Of a stretch of 64,000 bases of DNA, positions 54,989 through 64,000 are shown one piece after another. The notes below the pieces were generated by a model. It did not search any database. It was not told the origin of the DNA and saw only the letters and a program-made list of their open reading frames with translations. Origin of the DNA: Geobacillus icigianus. Its GTDB lineage: Bacteria; Bacillota; Bacilli; Bacillales; Anoxybacillaceae. A program made the translations under genes and the position numbers. Where the stretch lies: contig NZ_JPYA01000083.1 in the NCBI RefSeq assembly GCF_000750005.1, forward strand, positions 10,642 to 74,641. The letters are read 5' to 3'. Position 1 is the stretch's first letter, and each line of letters opens with the position of its first letter.

Positions 54989-55099
54989 TGGAACCTATAT
55001 TCCTTAATCTGTCATTTTTGTGTTAGAGGTGAGGGCAAGGTTTGCTTATGAATATTTTTTGTTCCGAGACGATGGCATGGCCGAGGTTTGTTGCGTGAA

Positions 55100-55135
55100 A
55101 AACGAGCTGACTCGTTTGAGCCAGCTCGTTTTCTT
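55100..55135 (-). terminator. Terminator after metH
   Basis: AACGAGCTG (55101-55109) pairs with CAGCTCGTT (55122-55130). On the minus strand the stem is followed by TTTTTCACG. Confidence 0.75.
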
Positions 55136-58100
55136 TACAGCACATTGAAATAGCGCGCTTCCGGATGGGCGACGACGATCGCCGAGACGGAGGCTTCCGG
55201 CTCCATCATGTAGCCGTCGGTCAAGCGGATGCCGACATCTTCCGGATGAAGGAGGCGGAACAGCTTTTCTTGGTCTTCCAAGTTCGGGCAGGCCGGGTAG
55301 CCGAACGAGTAGCGCTGGCCTTGGTATTTGGCGGCGAAGCGCTCTTCCATCGTGAAGTCCGGGTCGTCTGGGAAGCCCCAGCGGTCGCGCATAATTTGAT
55401 GGATGCGTTCGGCGAACCCTTCGGCGATCTCGAGCGCCAACGCCTGAATGGCATGGCTTTTCAAAAATTCGCCTTCGTCTTTCCACTGTTGGGCGAGTTC
55501 GCGGATGCCGTGCCCAGCGGTGACGGCGAAAAAGCCGACATAGTCCATTTCCCCGCTCTCTTTCGATTTCAAGTAATCGGCGAGGCAAAGGTGCGGCGCC
55601 CGCGGCTGGCGCGGGAAGTCAAACGTCTCAAGCACCGTTTGCCGGTCGGTCGGGTCGTAAATGTACACGCGGTTGCCGTCGCTTTGCGTCGGGAAAAAGC
55701 GGTAGACGCCGGCCGGCTGAATCCAGCCGTGTGTTTTGGCGGCGGCGATCAGTTCATCGACGACCGCTTTTAAGGCGAGCGCTTTTTCGTCTTTTTCTTC
55801 CAACAGCCGCTTCACTTTTCCTTTCAAGCCGAGATGATGGCCGAGCACCATTTGCCAGTTGACGTACGGCAACACGTGGTCAAGCGGCACATTCCTTAGC
55901 ACGTGGCGGTCGAGATCGGCCGGCACGTAGACCGGGACGTCGGTCGAAACGTTGGATTTGGCGGCCGTGGCGACAGCCGCCGTTCGCGCCGGTTCGTGTC
56001 CAGCGGTTTCTTTTTTTTGATAGTCGATCTCGCCTTGCTGGATTTGGTTGGCAAGGGCGAGCCCGTCCATGGCGTCCTTCGCGTATAGGACGATGCCGTC
56101 GTATTCGGGCGCGATTTTGTTTTCCGTAAACTTGCGCGTCAAGGCGGCGCCGCCGACTAAAATCGGGGTCGAAACACCGGCTTGCCGCAAGTCTTGGGCG
56201 GTGACGACCATTTGTTGCGCTGATTTGACGAGCAGGCCCGACAGGCCGATGATGTCCGGTTTATGCTCGCGCACCGCTTCGATGAGCTGCTGGGGGGCGA
56301 CTTTGATGCCAAGGTCGATCACTTCATAGCCGTTGTTGCTTAAAATAATGTCGACCAAGTTTTTGCCGATGTCATGCACATCGCCCTTCACCGTCGCCAA
56401 GATCACTTTTCCTTTCGTGCTTCCTTCTTTCTTTTCCATATATGGTTCTAAAAAGGCGACGGCCGCTTTCATTACTTCCGCACTTTGCAATACTTCAGCG
56501 ACGATGAGCTGGTTGTTGTTAAACAGCCGCCCGACTTCGTCCATGCCGGCCATGAGCGGGCCGTTGATGATCGCGAGCGGATCGGAGTACGTTTCCAGCG
56601 CCTGTTCCAAATCGGGAATGAGCCCGTCTTTCGATCCTTCAATGACGTAGCGGGCGAGCCGCTCTTCCAAGCTCAAGTTCGTCTGCACCGGTTTGGCGGC
56701 GGTGATTTTGCTTCGGTAAAATTCGATAAAGGCGTTTAACGTTTCGTCGCTGGTGGCAAAAAGAAGCGCCTCGGCCATCCGCACTTCTTCTTCCGGAATC
56801 GAAGCGAACCGCTCGAGCTTCTCGGTGTTGACGATGGCGTAATCGAGCCCGGCTTGCGTGCAATGGTACAAAAAGACCGAGTTCAGCACTTCACGCCCGG
56901 CCGGCGGCAAGCCGAACGAGACGTTGCTGATGCCGAGCATCGTTAAACAATGAGGAAGCCGCTCTTTAATGAGGCGGATCCCTTCGATCGTTTCTTTCGC
57001 CGCGCCGATGTATTGCTCATCGCCGGTGCCGACCGGGAAGACGAGCGGATCGAAAATGATGTCGCGCTCAGGCACGCCGTAGCGGTTCACGAGCAAGTCA
57101 TACGAACGCAAGGCGATCTCGAGCTTCCGTTCAGCAGTGACCGCCATTCCTTGTTCATCGATCGTCCCGACCACAACGGCGGCGCCGTAGCGGTGCAGCA
57201 GCGGCACGACGTTGGCAAAGCGCTCTTCGCCGTCTTCGAGGTTGATCGAGTTAATGATCGCCTTCCCTTGTGAATACGTGAGGGCGCGCTCGATGACGCG
57301 CTCGTCGGTCGAGTCAATGACGAGCGGCACTTTTACTTTTTTGACGACTTCGCGGACGAACTGTTCCATGTCGGAAAGCTCATCACGGTCCGGATCGGCG
57401 AGGCAAATGTCGATGACATGGGCGCCGTTTTTCACTTGGGCGCGGGCGATTTCCGCCGCTTCTTCGTATTTGCCTTCGGCGATGAGGCGCTTAAATTTGC
57501 GCGAGCCGATGACGTTCGTCCGCTCACCGACAAAAAGCGGGCGCATCGTTTCATCGTAGATGAGCGCTTCAATGCCGGAGACGGCGTGGACATCAAATGA
57601 AGACGGGATCGCCCGCGGCGGAATGTGGCGCACCGCTTCGGCGATGGCGCGGATATGGTCCGGCGTCGTGCCGCAGCACCCGCCGACGATGTTGATCCAT
57701 CCTTTTTCGGCAAAACGGCGAATTTTTTCCGCGAGCATCTCCGGTGTTTCATGGTAATGCCCTTCTTCGTCCGGCAGGCCGGCGTTCGGGTAACAGCTGA
57801 CCGCCGTGTCGGCAAGCGAGGCGAGCGTGCGCAAATGGTCGGTCATAAACTCCGGACCGGTCGCGCAGTTTAAGCCGACGGCGATCGGCTTCATGTGGCG
57901 GATCGAGATGAAAAACGAATCGATCGCCTGCCCGGCAAGCGTCGTACCCATCGGTTCGATCGTGCCGGAAATCATGAGCGGCACGCGGCGGCCGACGGCT
58001 TCAAACGCTTTGGAAATGCCGATGAATCCCGCTTTGACATTCAAGGTATCTTGGCACGTTTCCAAAAGGAGAAGGTCGACGCCGCCCAAAAGCAGTCCGT

Positions 58101-58545
58101 GCGCCTGTTCTTCATAGGCGGCAACGAGTTCGTCAAACGTCGCTCCGCCCGTGACCGACAAAGTTTTCGTCGTCGGCCCCATCGAACCGGCGACAAAGCG
58201 CGGCCAGTCGGGCGTTGCGAACGACTCGGCCGCTTGTTTGGCGAGCTTTGCTGCTTCGATGTTCAGCTCGAGCGCCAAATGGCCAAGCCCGTATTCATCA
58301 AGGACGATGCGCGTCGCCCCGAACGTGTTCGTTTCGATGATGTCCGCGCCGGCTTCCAAGTACGCTTCATGAATATGGCGGATGACGTGCGGAGCGGTGA
58401 TGGTCAAGTATTCGTTGCACCCTTCATACGCCTCGCCGCCAAAGTCGGCGGCTGATAAGTTGGCGCTTTGGATCATGGTGCCCATGGCGCCGTCGATGAC
58501 AAGAATTTTTCGCTGCAGCTGTTGTTCGAAGATGAGGTCAGCCAT
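55135..58545 (-). CDS. metH: Cobalamin-dependent methionine synthase MetH
   Basis: This 1136-residue, four-module enzyme transfers the methyl group of methyltetrahydrofolate via cobalamin to homocysteine. The homocysteine domain (about 1-310) has zinc ligands GLNCATGPE and [10 protein letters not shown]. The pterin domain (about 330-600) carries [14 protein letters not shown]. The cobalamin domain (about 640-870) has DVHDIGKN with the axial His. The C-terminal activation domain contains [13 protein letters not shown] and GYPACPN. ATG 58545 follows GAAAGGAAGG and lies inside the last codons of yitJ (8-bp overlap). It is the second gene of an S-box operon. Confidence 0.94.
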
Positions 58546-60388
58546 GAACAACCTTCCTTTCTTTCGCGGCCGCTTCTTTTTCGTGAATGTAGCGGACGAG
58601 CTCCACGGTCATGTCGTAGCGCAAAAACGGCGTAATGAAATAAATGCCGTGAAACAAGTCGAACGCCGCATCAATGAGCGCTTTGGCGATGGCGATTCCT
58701 TCGCGCGCCGCCCGCACCGGGTCGTCGCCGCAGGCGGCCATGCGGGCGCGAATGTCGTCGGACAGCGTAATGCCCGGCACCTCATGATGCAAAAACTCGG
58801 CGTTGCGCGCGCTCACAAGCGGCATAATGCCGATGTAAATCGGCGCGTCCAAATGTTTCGTCGCTTCGTACACGGCCACGATTTTCTCTTCCGAATAAAT
58901 CGGCTGGGTCAAGAAATAGTGGGCGCCGCATTGAATTTTTTTCTCCATCCGTTCGACGGCCTTATCCAAGTGACGGACGTTCGGATTGAACGCTGCGCCG
59001 ATCGAGAAGTTCGTTTTTTGTCCGAGCGGTTTGCCCGAATACGACAATCCTTCATTAAACTGGCGGATCAAGCGGATTAAATCAAACGACGATAAATCGT
59101 ACACCGATGTCGCTCCCGGGAAGTCGCCGATTTTTGACGGGTCGCCGGTAATGGCGAGCACGTCGGTGATGCCGAGCGTATGCAGGCCCATCAAGTGCGA
59201 CTGCAGACCGATCAAGTTGCGGTCGCGGCACGTAATATGCACGAGCGGGCGGACGCCGAGCCGCTCTTTGATGATGGTCGCGACGGCGGCGTTGCTGATG
59301 CGCGGTGTGGCGAGCGAGTTGTCGGCTAACGTCAGCGCGTCAATGCCGGCGTCATGGAGCGCTTTCGCCCCGGCGAGAAATTTGTCAATGCCCAATTTTT
59401 TCGGGGGATCGAGCTCGACGATCACCGAGCGGCGGGCGCGGACAAGTTCGGGAAGCGGCGTCGCTGCCGATGGGGCGTCGGATTGGACCGACACCGGCAC
59501 GGCGCGCCGTTTGACCGTTTTTTCCGTTACCGGCGTCCGGTCTTGCAGCGCCCGCGCCATCGCTTCAATATGGTTCGGCGTCGTGCCGCAGCACCCGCCG
59601 AGCAGCCGCACCCCTTGGTCGCGAAACGCTTTCGCCGTTTCCTCGAAGTATTCGGCATTCGTCTCATAGACGAGCCGGCCGTCGCGATAGTCGGGGAGGC
59701 TCGCGTTCGGGTACGCCGATAAAAAGGCGTGCGTTGGCAGCGGCACTTCCTCAAGCGATTGAAGCATATAGTACGGCCCGAGCCGGCAGTTGAGCCCGAC
59801 GACATCGGCGCCAAGCGCTTCTAAGCGGGCGAGGGCGTCAGCGAGCGGCGTGCCGTCTTGCAAGACGCCCACTTCATGGAGCGACACATGGGCGATGATC
59901 GGCAAGTCCGTCTCTTTGCGGGCGATGGCGAGCACCGTCTCCAACTCTTCTAAATCGTAATACGTCTCGAGCAGCACGCCATCGACCCCCTCGGCGAGCA
60001 AGACAAACAGCTGCTCGCGGAACGTCCGCTTCACTTCATCAAGCGGCACGGCGCTTTTGTTTAACGTGCGCAGTCCGCCGATGGTCCCGAGCACGTACGC
60101 CCGACCGTTGGCGGCTTGTTTGGCGAGCCGCACCGCCGCCCGGTTGATGGCCGGCACCTCATCTTGCAAGCCGTAGCGGGCGAGTTTCACATAGTTGGCG
60201 CCGTAGGTATTCGTCTGGATGACGTCGGCGCCCGCGGCGATATAGGCTTCGTGAATATGGACGATGTCTTCCGGTTTCGATAGATTCAATTCTTCAAAAC
60301 AACGGTCAACCCCATGCGAATAGAGAAGCGTCCCCATCGCCCCGTCGGCGATCAGCACGCGTTGTTTCAGCTCATCAAGCAATCCCAT
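58538..60388 (-). CDS. yitJ: Bifunctional homocysteine methyltransferase / methylenetetrahydrofolate reductase (YitJ)
   Basis: This 616-residue protein has an N-terminal homocysteine S-methyltransferase domain (about 1-300: [23 protein letters not shown], zinc ligands [10 protein letters not shown]) and a C-terminal MetF-like FAD domain (about 325-610: [28 protein letters not shown]). It supplies methyltetrahydrofolate for MetH, whose gene follows with overlap. The presence of homocysteine domains in both genes suggests alternate methyl donors. A SAM-I riboswitch precedes the gene. Confidence 0.93.
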
Positions 60389-60420
60389 GTTCCATTCCCC
60401 CGTTTCTTGGCAAGTAAAAG

Positions 60421-60558
60421 AAAAAAGCCTTCTAAGAAGAAGACTTTCCGTTCGCTTCTTCTTATCTTCCAGGCTGCTGCCTGTCTGGATTTAGCACCTT
60501 GGCCGCGGCCAGGTTGCTGAGGGTTCACTGGGCCAGTCCCTCCCCCTCTCTTGATAAG
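60421..60558 (-). promoter_or_regulatory. S-box (SAM-I) riboswitch controlling yitJ-metH
   Basis: On the minus strand the core elements are in order: CTTATCAAGAGAGG, GAGGGACTGGCCC, GAACCCTCAGCAACCTGGCC, AAGGTGCTAAATCC and the closing GATAAG of P1. The terminator follows: AGAAGAAGCG...CTTCTTCTT and AGAAGGCTTTTTT. High SAM should favour the terminator and switch the operon off. A TACAAT -10-like box lies about 15 bp before the aptamer. Confidence 0.93.
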
Positions 60559-60766
60559 AAAATTCGTATCCAATTGTATCGTCCCGTTTGGGTGATTACT
60601 ATATAATTTAATGTATTTTTTGAAATTATTCAATACAGTGAAGCAAGAAATTTGCCAAAGATTTGCCCGATCAAGGGAGAAGGAACTCTTGTATGATTCT
60701 GTAGATGAGTATTTTTCAGTAATTTCCATACCCTAAGAGACAAACAGGGCACCCCTTAGGCGACAT

Positions 60767-60796
60767 GGAGCTGTTTTTTGTCATGTCTCCTTTTTT
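60767..60796 (-). mobile_element. Solo end of an IS701-like element
   Basis: The segment reads GGAGCTG, six T, then GTCATGTCTCCTTTTTT. It is the inverted counterpart of the IS end at 63817-63842 (AAAAAAGGAGACATGAACCC then AGCTCC) apart from a few bases in the middle. No transposase gene accompanies it. Confidence 0.5.
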
Positions 60797-60929
60797 GGTT
60801 CATCACCACAACGTGCACTTCTCTGAACAGGTGTAGGCAAAAAATGATTGGCTTCTGTTCTTTCGTGGATGCATTAAGTTAAGATGTGTCATGAAAAAAA
60901 TCAAGTACAACTTTTAGTGAAGAGCCTTT
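60788..60929 (+). repeat. Long repeat R3, bacteriocin-cluster copy (uninterrupted)
   Basis: About 142 bp matching the sequence upstream of comK: GGTTCATCACCACAACGTGC, ACTTCTCTGAACAGGTGTAG, GCAAAAAATGATTGGC, TTCTTTCGTGGATGCATTAA and GTTAAGATGTGTCATGAAA. Compared with the comK copy it lacks a 16-bp segment and the inserted MITE-like element. The rest of the 60389-61088 gap holds the riboswitch, the solo IS end and an AT-rich leader with two short hairpins (GACGAAAAACGTC and CTCTT...AAGAG) and a TACAAT box near 61020. Confidence 0.8.
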
Positions 60930-61088
60930 TGTTTCGATAGCACAAAAAAATGTCGAAATATGTTAAAAAAAGACGAAAAACGTCAACCCATTTCTCTTTT
61001 TTTTTTAAGAGTCAAAGTGTACAATAAAAAATGGATGATGGTAACAAGGAATTTAATAGAAATGGCGTCACAGACAGGAGTGAAAGAA

Positions 61089-61265
61089 ATGAAACGATGG
61101 TCGTGGCCGTATTTTATTCTCATTAGCCTGCCGTTTGTGTTGTTTATTGTCCTTGCCTTTGGCTTAAAAGCGGCTAAGACGCCAATGTGGGGAAAAATCG
61201 CATTGATTGCGGCCGTTCTTGTTTATGGGATCGTTTATTCGCGTTTATTGCGGAAAATGAAATAA
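61089..61265 (+). CDS. Small cationic two-segment membrane protein, candidate bacteriocin immunity protein
   Basis: This 58-residue, strongly basic protein has two membrane segments (about 7-28 and 35-51) and a C-terminal SRLLRKMK. Small cationic hydrophobic proteins of this size act as immunity proteins in circular bacteriocin clusters. It directly precedes the bacteriocin peptide sequence, separated by 30 bp. ATG 61089 has CAGGAGTG eight bases upstream; ATG 61062 is less well placed. The immunity role is inference from size, charge and place. Confidence 0.65.
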   Translation: MKRWSWPYFILISLPFVLFIVLAFGLKAAKTPMWGKIALIAAVLVYGIVYSRLLRKMK

Positions 61266-61293
61266 AGTCCGATCGGATTTGAAATACGAGTAG

Positions 61294-61515
61294 TTCACGC
61301 TTGTTGCCGGAACGCTCGGCGTGTCGCAAGCAGTTGCTACAACTGTTGTTTCGATCGTGCTGACCGGCTCCACGCTCGTTTCGATGATTCTTGGAATTAC
61401 TGCGATTTTGTCAGGCGGAGTCGATGCCATTTTGGAAATTGGCTGGTCAGCGTTTGTAGCAACGGTGAAAAAAATCGTGGCTGAGCGGGGAAAAAAAGCG
61501 GCAATTGCATGGTAA
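61294..61515 (+). pseudogene. Circular bacteriocin structural gene (circularin A/uberolysin family), start codon not identifiable
   Basis: After an amber codon at 61291 the frame reads FTL and then VAGTLGVSQAVATTVVSIVL through to ERGKKAAIAW, stop at 61513. The 70-residue part from Val aligns in layout with circularin A (VAGALGVQTAAATTIVNVIL... ending AIAY), including the hydrophobic helices, a Gly-Gly near 40, IGW near 48 and a basic stretch near the C-terminus. Circularin A has a three-residue leader MFL; here the matching leader would be xFTL with TAG at x. There is no ATG, GTG or TTG between the amber codon and the mature part and no clear ribosome site. Either the gene is broken, or it starts at ACG, or the sequence has an error. 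Family call confident, function not. Confidence 0.8.
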
Positions 61516-61524
61516 CATGGAAAC

Positions 61525-61551
61525 CGGCAGGGGGAGAAAGGCCCCCTGCCG
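61525..61551 (+). terminator. Strong intercistronic hairpin after the bacteriocin sequence
   Basis: CGGCAGGGGG (61525-61534) pairs perfectly with CCCCCTGCCG (61542-61551), loop AGAAAGG. It is followed by TTCCTATG with no T run. Such a stem would keep the short bacteriocin transcript stable and lower expression of the genes behind it. Confidence 0.75.
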
Positions 61552-61579
61552 TTCCTATGAGATGAAAGGGGGAAGAGCC

Positions 61580-63199
61580 GTGAGACTCGTATGGCTATGG
61601 TATCTCCAAAAACAGCGAAGCAGTATCGCCCCTTTACAGCGAAAATCACCGTTTTCCCCGCGGACGACACTGTTGTTGTTGGAAGCGACGAAATGGCTCA
61701 TTTCGTCGGCGCTCGTTGCAGTGATCTGTTTTCGATCGACAATGATGTTTCGTCCTGTTGTGACGATGTTGATTCTTTTCTTTTTATCGGTCGGTCCTTT
61801 AATCGGGGTTTCGCTGGAGTCAAAAGAGGCGTTGGAGCGCCGCTACCATTTTGACTATTTGCGGTTGTCTAGTGTGCGGGATGATCACGTATGGAGGCGG
61901 TTGCTAGGCCTTCACTATGCGGTGTCTTTGCTGCGTCTATCGCCGTTGTTTCTCCCTCCCTCTGTCGGCTTGATCGCCAAGTTTGGGGTGAGAGGAGCGG
62001 TGTGGATATGGCTTGGGCAAGCGATGGTGCTACTTCTGTATGTCATATCGCATATGATGCGCGGTTCAACAACTAGAGCGGCGCGTGTATGTTCAGCTTT
62101 GTTCTTTCGCATGGCCTCATTGGCGATCGGGTATGCTGTGCTTGCGGCGATAATGCCGCTGTTGCAATTGTCCCGCCAAGCGGTTCGGATGTATGGGTTG
62201 TCGCTTTCTTATCTTGCGCATATGGATGATTACGTTGCTCACTGGCAACAGCAATTTTATCAACGCATGGCCCACTTAGGGGAAGGATGGTCCTTTTCAA
62301 GCACTGCTTTATCACTTGTTGGAGCTGGGTTTGTACTGTTGGCACTGCTTTGTTTTCCTTTCCTTCGCGCCTCTCATTCCAGCAAGGCGATGGATAAGCT
62401 GTATTCATGGCAGCTGCGTGCCATTGAGGTATTAGCGGTTCGCGGCACGAACAATGCGATTTTATATAAGGATCTTTGTCTGTTCATGCGCAAAGCAAAG
62501 GAGTTGGCCAAGCCGCCTTGGACGCTGTTTCTGCCAGGGGAATTGTTCTTGGTTGCTGGAGCGAATTTGCCGCTGTTGGCGGCCGTTCACAACGGAGCGA
62601 TCCTTTTGTTTTTGTTTCTGTTCGAAGTATACTTGGTCATGACAGGGACGTTGCGAGCCATGACCGATGCCTTTCCAGACATTTTTCAGTTTGAAAGCGA
62701 AATGGAGCGTCTCCTTGTTTTTCGGCTTCTTTCTCCGCCTCCCCTTGGATCGTTAATTGAAGCGAAATGGACGCTGCTTGAGCGATTAGGGAGTTACCCA
62801 TGCCTGATCGCATGCGGATGGCTGTTTATCGAATATATCGGATTATCGGGAGTGCAGCGAGGGGTGTGGGCGGTAATCGGAGCGATACTGATGCTGCCCG
62901 CCTATCCGTTTGTTGTGAAACGGATTTTGCGCACCGATTATGAAGTGTTCTGCCTTGTTTTAGCCAGCGGTGAACAAGCGGCATTGACATCTCCGCGCGA
63001 TTATGCAGGGTATATGTTGATTGCAGCTGGAAATCATTCGTTTCATCGCTTGTTAATTTACATCACCACCTTTTCATCGCTCGTTTCGGCCTTTTTTATG
63101 CTCTTGAAAGGTTGGAGTTGGGCGTGGTACAGCGGTTTGTTTGTCGTGATGCTTTACCTTGTATTGTGGCACAGTTCTCGATATGCGCGGCGCATGTGA
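61580..63199 (+). CDS. Large membrane protein of circular bacteriocin cluster (CirB-like)
   Basis: This 539-residue protein has about ten to twelve membrane segments and no enzymatic motif I can see. Position and size match the large membrane protein (CirB/UblB type) found right after the structural gene in circularin A and uberolysin clusters, which is needed for maturation or export. GTG 61580 is chosen because AAAGGGGGAAG lies seven bases upstream and because the longer frame from 61505 passes through the bacteriocin stop and hairpin. A DUF95 gene follows with short overlap or spacing. Confidence 0.75.
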   Translation: MRLVWLWYLQKQRSSIAPLQRKSPFSPRTTLLLLEATKWLISSALVAVICFRSTMMFRPVVTMLILFFLSVGPLIGVSLESKEALERRYHFDYLRLSSVRDDHVWRRLLGLHYAVSLLRLSPLFLPPSVGLIAKFGVRGAVWIWLGQAMVLLLYVISHMMRGSTTRAARVCSALFFRMASLAIGYAVLAAIMPLLQLSRQAVRMYGLSLSYLAHMDDYVAHWQQQFYQRMAHLGEGWSFSSTALSLVGAGFVLLALLCFPFLRASHSSKAMDKLYSWQLRAIEVLAVRGTNNAILYKDLCLFMRKAKELAKPPWTLFLPGELFLVAGANLPLLAAVHNGAILLFLFLFEVYLVMTGTLRAMTDAFPDIFQFESEMERLLVFRLLSPPPLGSLIEAKWTLLERLGSYPCLIACGWLFIEYIGLSGVQRGVWAVIGAILMLPAYPFVVKRILRTDYEVFCLVLASGEQAALTSPRDYAGYMLIAAGNHSFHRLLIYITTFSSLVSAFFMLLKGWSWAWYSGLFVVMLYLVLWHSSRYARRM

Positions 63200-63209
63200 G
63201 GGGGCATTG

Positions 63210-63725
63210 ATGATGATCAAGCGAGCCATTCACACTCATTTCCCGTATTTCTTATTGTCACTAGGGGTGTATGTTGTCTGCTTTGCATTGGGGGCAGGGA
63301 TTTTTTCGCAAAAACTTGTCATTCATCCGACTTCCATGGCGTTTTGGGCTACTTTCGGGCACAACTTGATGGTTGGGGTCATTTTGATGGTCGGCGGATG
63401 GCTGACGTTAGGAATGGCTAATACTCTTTATCTTGGTTATCATGCTGCGATGCTCGGAGTGATCGTGAAAGGAGTCGCCAAAGGCTATGGTTGGCATCCG
63501 TTGATGACAGGAGTTTTCCCCCATGCCGTTCCGGAAATAATGGGACATCTTTTGTTTTGTACATTAGGATATGAAACATGGCGATTTCTTCACATTGTGA
63601 AGAAAAGAGCGAGGGGGGAAAAAACGGAACCGCTCTATATACGCGATATCCTCTTTTTGTTTTTGGTGGCGGTTGTGCTGCTCATTCTCTCCGCCGGCTT
63701 GGAGGCAACGGTGTCTCATGGGTGA
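63210..63725 (+). CDS. SpoIIM/DUF95 family membrane protein of the bacteriocin cluster (CirC-like)
   Basis: This protein of about 171 residues has four to five membrane segments and belongs to the SpoIIM-like DUF95 family: FGHNLMVGVILMVGGWLTLGMANTLYLGYHAAMLG near 45-80, then GVFPHAVPEIMGHLLFC near 100-116. DUF95 proteins are standard partners in circular bacteriocin clusters. ATG 63210 or 63213 follows GAGGGGG. After it an ABC ATPase gene would be expected, but an IS element begins about 90 bp downstream. Confidence 0.82.
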   Translation: MMIKRAIHTHFPYFLLSLGVYVVCFALGAGIFSQKLVIHPTSMAFWATFGHNLMVGVILMVGGWLTLGMANTLYLGYHAAMLGVIVKGVAKGYGWHPLMTGVFPHAVPEIMGHLLFCTLGYETWRFLHIVKKRARGEKTEPLYIRDILFLFLVAVVLLILSAGLEATVSHG

Positions 63726-63816
63726 GAGGTGTAAATGCAAAGCGATTGAATCATAGTGGAAAAAGAATAGAGAACTGTAGATGAGCAAATTTGCTAACAT
63801 AAATTGACAGCTAAAC

Positions 63817-64000
63817 AAAAAAGGAGACATGAACCCAGCTCCTTGAGTAAAATAGATGTGCTCAAACTACCCGCAAGGAGGTTCATGTCTCATGAATAGA
63901 TTAGCACATCATCAAGGAATCCACAAGTTTTTCATGACGCTGGGATTGGCGCTTTATTTCTCGAAACCGGTCATCAAGCATCTCGTTCATATTGTGGATG
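63817..64000 (+). mobile_element. IS701-like insertion sequence (left end, runs off the window)
   Basis: The segment starts with AAAAAAGGAGACATGAACCC and AGCTCC, whose inverted form occurs as a solo end at 60767-60796, and contains the transposase start. The exact first base is not certain because the target duplication partner is outside the window. Confidence 0.65.
63892..64000 (+). CDS. Transposase, IS701-like (partial)
   Basis: ATG 63892 behind AAGGAGG encodes MNRLAHHQGIHKFFMTLGL and continues to the window edge (36 codons). The N-terminus resembles IS701-family DDE transposases common in Geobacillus. The catalytic part lies outside the window, so the family is a judgement from the first residues. 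Confidence 0.7.
   Translation, partial: MNRLAHHQGIHKFFMTLGLALYFSKPVIKHLVHIVD

Follow-up and report, generated by a model that had tools for sequence, protein, structure and literature searches.

The end of a 64,000-nucleotide stretch of Geobacillus icigianus DNA (contig NZ_JPYA01000083.1, positions 10,642 to 74,641; the whole stretch is called the window below) holds a circular bacteriocin cluster of the circularin A/uberolysin type, in which the precursor gene appears to have been silenced by loss of its ribosome-binding site, start codon and leader, with its partner genes still in open frames, a reading to which we give a probability of about 0.72. An initial annotation of the same DNA had taken the locus for a circular bacteriocin cluster, and in family and partner genes this holds; as a producing cluster it is doubtful, because the window copy has no Shine-Dalgarno sequence, no ordinary start codon and no leader, and the missing start had been overlooked. 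Judged from its sequence, bacteriocin production by the strain has most likely ceased, and the loss of the precursor start would be recent. Two features carry the argument:

61266..61302, + strand: lesion stretch, in which relatives hold the Shine-Dalgarno sequence, the ATG and the codons of a six-residue leader; here it has an in-frame TAG with no ATG, GTG or TTG following before the core, and a candidate ACG at 61297.
61303..61515, + strand: core-peptide frame of a circular bacteriocin, 70 codons and a stop, assigned from TIGR03651, PF09221, an AS-48 alignment and the pairwise ratio of nonsynonymous to synonymous substitution rates (dN/dS).

Positions 61303-61512 form an open frame of 70 codons (VAGTLG...AAIAW). 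The circularin A/uberolysin family model TIGR03651 matches it along its length with 87 bits (cut-off 30.7, E 7.9e-25) and PF09221 with 82.2 bits (cut-off 23.6), which is far above chance, and the AS-48 sequence aligns to core residues 3-70 (E 4.9e-7). By its sequence the frame is thus a circularin A/uberolysin-type core, as the initial annotation had proposed. The possibility that it is a piece of a longer unrelated protein is ruled out by in-frame stops at both sides, and read-through from the upstream gene ORF1 is ruled out likewise, since ORF1 lies in a different frame and stops at 61265. The suggestion that the peptide may be a new member suited to high temperature is weak, as the core is 95.7% identical to that of G. 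thermocatenulatus and 94.3% to Anoxybacillus copies, and Geobacillus clusters have been published; as to the core sequence alone, the window allele is one more family member with few new features. An AlphaFold2 model of the core was helical with low confidence (mean predicted local distance difference test score, pLDDT, 66.7), and its best Foldseek match, the AS-48 mutant 4rgd, was not significant (E 1.4). The strain's own genome gave a single PF09221 match, so no second bacteriocin copy was found.

What the window copy lacks lies immediately ahead of this core. In the close relatives a strong Shine-Dalgarno sequence, an ATG and the leader MSLLAL precede VAG, in Alicyclobacillus kakegawensis the leader is MLLLAL, and an ATG with a six-residue leader was present in all seven intact genomes (10 loci, L003/L035, L004/L028 and L005/L030 each being one genome taken twice). 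Translation across the lesion in the window reads ...KYE-stop-FTL-VAG, with the TAG at 61291-61293 four codons ahead of Val1 and no ATG, GTG or TTG in the core frame between the two. The first ordinary start beyond the TAG is the GTG at 61321, within the core, which is not favoured because it drops the first six core residues; a start at the TTG at 61279 is not favoured because the TAG comes after it. With no ordinary start between the TAG and Val1, a leader-bearing precursor is not encoded in the usual manner, and in this defining trait of the family, a precursor that has both start and leader, the window copy falls short as it stands.

Pairing with the anti-Shine-Dalgarno sequence was estimated against what we take to be the 16S rRNA end. 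It ranged from -13.9 to -20.4 kcal/mol in the seven intact genomes (10 loci) and from -11.1 to -14.7 kcal/mol for ORF1 (-11.4), ORF3 and the SpoIIM gene of the window, and reached -3.8, -1.6 and -3.5 kcal/mol for the core-frame candidates ACG, TTG and GTG, respectively. As 500 sampled stretches gave a median of -2.9 and a 5% quantile of -8.7 kcal/mol, ribosome-site pairing ahead of the window core is at background level. A MAFFT DNA alignment placed a gap over the ribosome site and start; it spans 44 columns in the comparison with G. thermocatenulatus BGSC 93A1 (G007) and the genome G005 and 15 letters in that with the Anoxybacillus-type loci, and its exact borders vary with the alignment.

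Pairwise dN/dS against G005 and G007, an average over both lineages and for the core drawn from a short sequence, was 0.066 and 0.040 for the core, 0.34 and 0.31 for ORF1, 0.27 and 0.25 for ORF3, 0.12 and 0.11 for the SpoIIM gene and 0.10 and 0.12 for the ATPase gene. Among database proteins, the core was 90-96% identical to the four close entries aligned. Four proteins (P0002, P0005, P0010 and P0022; 14 contigs altogether) start at or inside the core; the first three are accordingly called without a leader, as is P0022, which is altered, with a frameshift-like tail at its end. Changes were examined at 32 conserved columns, kept in at least 8 of 9 outgroup alleles, for 19 of 27 proteins (P0012, P0013, P0014, P0015, P0016, P0018, P0022 and P0026 were left out), the numbers being small and the alleles related. 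The window, P0002, P0005 and P0010 all carry I28M at a conserved column, probably a single inherited change. Further changes at such columns are G63E in two of these three database alleles and G3R in one, and one of seven leader-bearing close alleles has a single conserved-column change (A2V). In P0012, P0013, P0015 and P0018 the leader is intact and the core is changed or ends after VATVKK, possibly through frameshifts or at contig ends.

Several points weigh against silencing. The core frame has stayed open, and its pairwise dN/dS is below that of each of the other four genes; the core was thus kept under constraint through most of the divergence, and the loss is either recent or incomplete in effect, or translation is ongoing. 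The ACG at 61297 would yield a Met-Leu leader, the genome is available as a draft in 206 contigs, and the four proteins called without a leader are known from protein sequences alone and not from their upstream DNA; the altered or shortened ends of the leader-bearing P0012, P0013, P0015 and P0018, left out of the column comparison, mean that broken cores are not limited to leaderless alleles. Lactocyclicin Q and leucocyclicin Q have leaders of two residues. Circularin A is reported to mature with clearly decreased activity when its leader is ML and to behave about as the wild type when it is M (PMC10028692), so the maturation machinery might accept a Met-Leu leader if one were made. The gene would then be alive, its ACG opening a 72-residue precursor that undergoes normal maturation and cyclisation, with which the low dN/dS of the core agrees. 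Yet ACG is not an ordinary bacterial start, its pairing lies near the background median, and two of the three startless database alleles are altered at conserved residues besides the shared I28M, which makes this reading rather unlikely. For enterocin NKR-5-3B leader truncations are reported to disable production (PMC10028692), and the leaders of reported circular bacteriocins span 2-48 residues (PMC8534725). It is unlikely, too, that translation still begins in the startless frame unaided by a Shine-Dalgarno sequence, at the ACG or a different unusual codon, so that a circular bacteriocin arises from a precursor whose leader has two residues or is absent; if true, the locus would be a natural test of the minimal leader for the cyclisation machinery and a natural throttle on bacteriocin output.

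The functional, heat-adapted and new circular bacteriocin envisaged by the initial annotation has the family match and the full set of partners in its favour, but it would have to do without an ordinary start or leader, and its core is as close to known entries as given above; we consider it quite improbable. An assembly or sequencing error, with the gene intact in the living strain, would suit a draft genome. However, Shine-Dalgarno sequence, start codon and leader are all gone, which is beyond a single-base fault, and P0002, P0005 and P0010, whose longest contigs exceed 3.6 Mb, also begin, as far as their protein sequences show, with the core or within it, so that we hold an error to be very improbable.

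If the precursor gene was silenced, the ancestral state, by analogy with the family, would have been a leader-bearing precursor that was cleaved, joined head to tail and exported, and the product would have permeabilised competitors. The gene would then have lost its ribosome-binding site, start codon and leader, and the predicted immunity and transport genes would have been kept. Immunity to the product of the intact relatives may be retained through ORF1 together with the membrane and ATPase genes, an outcome that has a precedent in the orphan immunity transporters of circular bacteriocins described in enterococci (PMC10598978).

The cluster starts with the gene for the small cationic membrane protein, followed by those for the precursor, the large membrane protein, the SpoIIM/DUF95 protein and the ATP-binding cassette (ABC) ATPase, and the core frame and the other four genes are all open. 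The remaining features are as follows:

61089..61265, + strand: ORF1, a hydrophobic, cationic membrane protein of 58 residues (isoelectric point, pI, 10.8; grand average of hydropathy, GRAVY, 0.99).
61580..63199, + strand: ORF3, the large membrane protein of the cluster, 539 residues with a GTG start, its membrane nature read off the hydrophobic sequence.
63210..63725, + strand: SpoIIM/DUF95 protein of 171 residues (PF01944, 57.4 bits).
63768..63774, no strand: the left one of the two TAGAGAA repeats that make up the 7-bp target duplication of an insertion sequence, from sequence comparison of two contig ends.
63775..64000, + strand: left part of the insertion sequence lying between the genes for SpoIIM and the ABC ATPase, from the same comparison.
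G000:C66:26754-27410 (L032 4755-5411), outside the window: ABC ATPase gene at the end of contig C66 of the strain's own genome (G000).

The small cationic protein ahead of the peptide and the large membrane protein and SpoIIM protein behind it had all been recognised before, and these assignments were borne out. Family searches matched the peptide and the SpoIIM protein; ORF1 had no match above cut-off in Pfam and NCBIfam, and ORF3 none there at E up to 1. A homologue of ORF1 was present in all nine intact loci compared (seven genomes) with 36-66% identity, and its small size, charge and hydrophobicity make it a probable dedicated immunity protein. ORF3 is 73% identical to its homologues in G005 and G007, where the gene order is identical. 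A homologue search found at least six ORF3 proteins, including P0028, identical to that of the window, and P0032, a form of 455 residues without the first 84, named for the thermoleovorans group; since it scored only the 8000 candidates with most words in common, absence from it means little.

The window ends with contig C82, inside the insertion sequence starting at 63775, and the ATPase gene is therefore outside it. The 7-bp duplication TAGAGAA occurs at the ends of both C82 and C66, next to 11-base element ends that match each other, for which reason the cluster is taken as one unit split between the SpoIIM and ATPase genes; this linkage rests on the sequence of the contig ends, with no spanning read, and agrees with the gene order of the relatives. 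The ABC ATPase is 84% identical to its G. thermocatenulatus counterpart, and its gene adjoins one read as potA. A short element at 60699-60797 resembles both ends of the interrupting insertion sequence and is apparently an internally deleted copy. Upstream of ORF1, at 60798-60930, lies a small element with imperfect ends like GGCTCTTCACCA / TGGTGAAGAGCC.

The genes bordering the cluster were named methyltransferase/MTHFR-like and potA by reading their sequences rather than by a family search. The core was found in 4 of 14 genus genomes, own included (G000, G005, G007 and G010), and PF09221 exceeded its cut-off in 8 of 41 family genomes, own included, one of them, G012 (32.6 bits), being doubtful, as the one frame looked at there is unlike a bacteriocin. 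Cluster genes including the core lie beside the methyltransferase gene in three of the 14 genus genomes (G000, G005, G007). At the same site one genome, G013, has only an ORF1 homologue and the ATPase ahead of potA, in eight (G001, G002, G006, G008-G012) the 1.5-kb flank holds potA and is free of cluster genes, and two (G003, G004) show neither potA nor a cluster gene within the 8-9 kb taken. The copy of G010 is at a different location (L034, on G010:C3), and its ORF3 homologue (L034 5527-7126) is broken into two overlapping pieces and carries a stop; with an intact precursor beside a broken ORF3, it represents a different type of decay. In G013 the process seen in the window may have gone further, or its history may be separate. 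If this is confirmed, a single chromosomal site would offer a natural series, made up of the window, its intact relatives, the cluster-free sites and the stripped G013, with which one could test in what order peptide, maturation and immunity genes are lost. At L051 1316-1455 in G013, an element of the GGCTCTTCACCA / TGGTGAAGAGCC type occupies the place where the precursor, ORF3 and SpoIIM genes are missing.

Among known systems, G. thermocatenulatus BGSC 93A1 (locus L003, NZ_NEWK01000002.1) and G005, whose core differs at 6 of 70 residues, share the methyltransferase/MTHFR-like neighbour and the five-gene order with the window, but have the Shine-Dalgarno sequence, an ATG and the MSLLAL leader; no insertion sequence lies between the SpoIIM and ATPase genes of L003, which are separated by 48 bases. 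Anoxybacillus amylolyticus carries the same gene order (core 94.3% identical), annotated as 'uberolysin/carnocyclin family circular bacteriocin', on the 65-kb plasmid pDSM15939_2 (NZ_CP015440.1) and, unlike the window, has a precursor with start and leader. Thermocin 458 of G. stearothermophilus DSM 458 appears in a published list among the family i circular bacteriocins, with 70 residues and 6933.25 Da (PMC7132975), against a computed cyclic mass of 6964.21 for the window core, a comparison by listed length and mass and not by sequence; this DSM 458 peptide is described as circularin-like, and the 46% identity to circularin A is reported for it, not for the window (PMC5658498). Circularin A of Clostridium beijerinckii matches the same model, TIGR03651, and likewise starts Val-Ala, but has 69 residues and the leader MFL (PMC10028692).

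In Geobacillus, 31 circular bacteriocin peptides have been predicted in 29 genomes (PMC6160750), and five clusters weakly similar to circularin A are described (PMC5695211). Some of these predictions 'could be determined to be pseudogenes' (PMC6160750), and certain clusters are considered probably vestigial or pseudogenes (PMC7132975). Among the papers listed in searches directed at reported losses of such a gene, titles and abstract openings gave no description of this loss of start and leader, which is no proof of its absence in print. Some surveys find circular bacteriocins by the mature sequence only (PMC7132975), and the present locus shows that a core can score fully although its gene has no ordinary start.

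A comparison with viral contigs gave 29 pattern stretches, none of them a relative, and a tRNA scan of 55000-64000 found none. Four promoters were found against 4.3 expected, and 10 terminators against 4.6 expected, none of which was used in the argument. Upstream of the cluster-bordering methyltransferase/MTHFR-like gene, an S-adenosylmethionine (SAM) riboswitch (RF00162, 90.5 bits) lies at 60459-60560 on the - strand.

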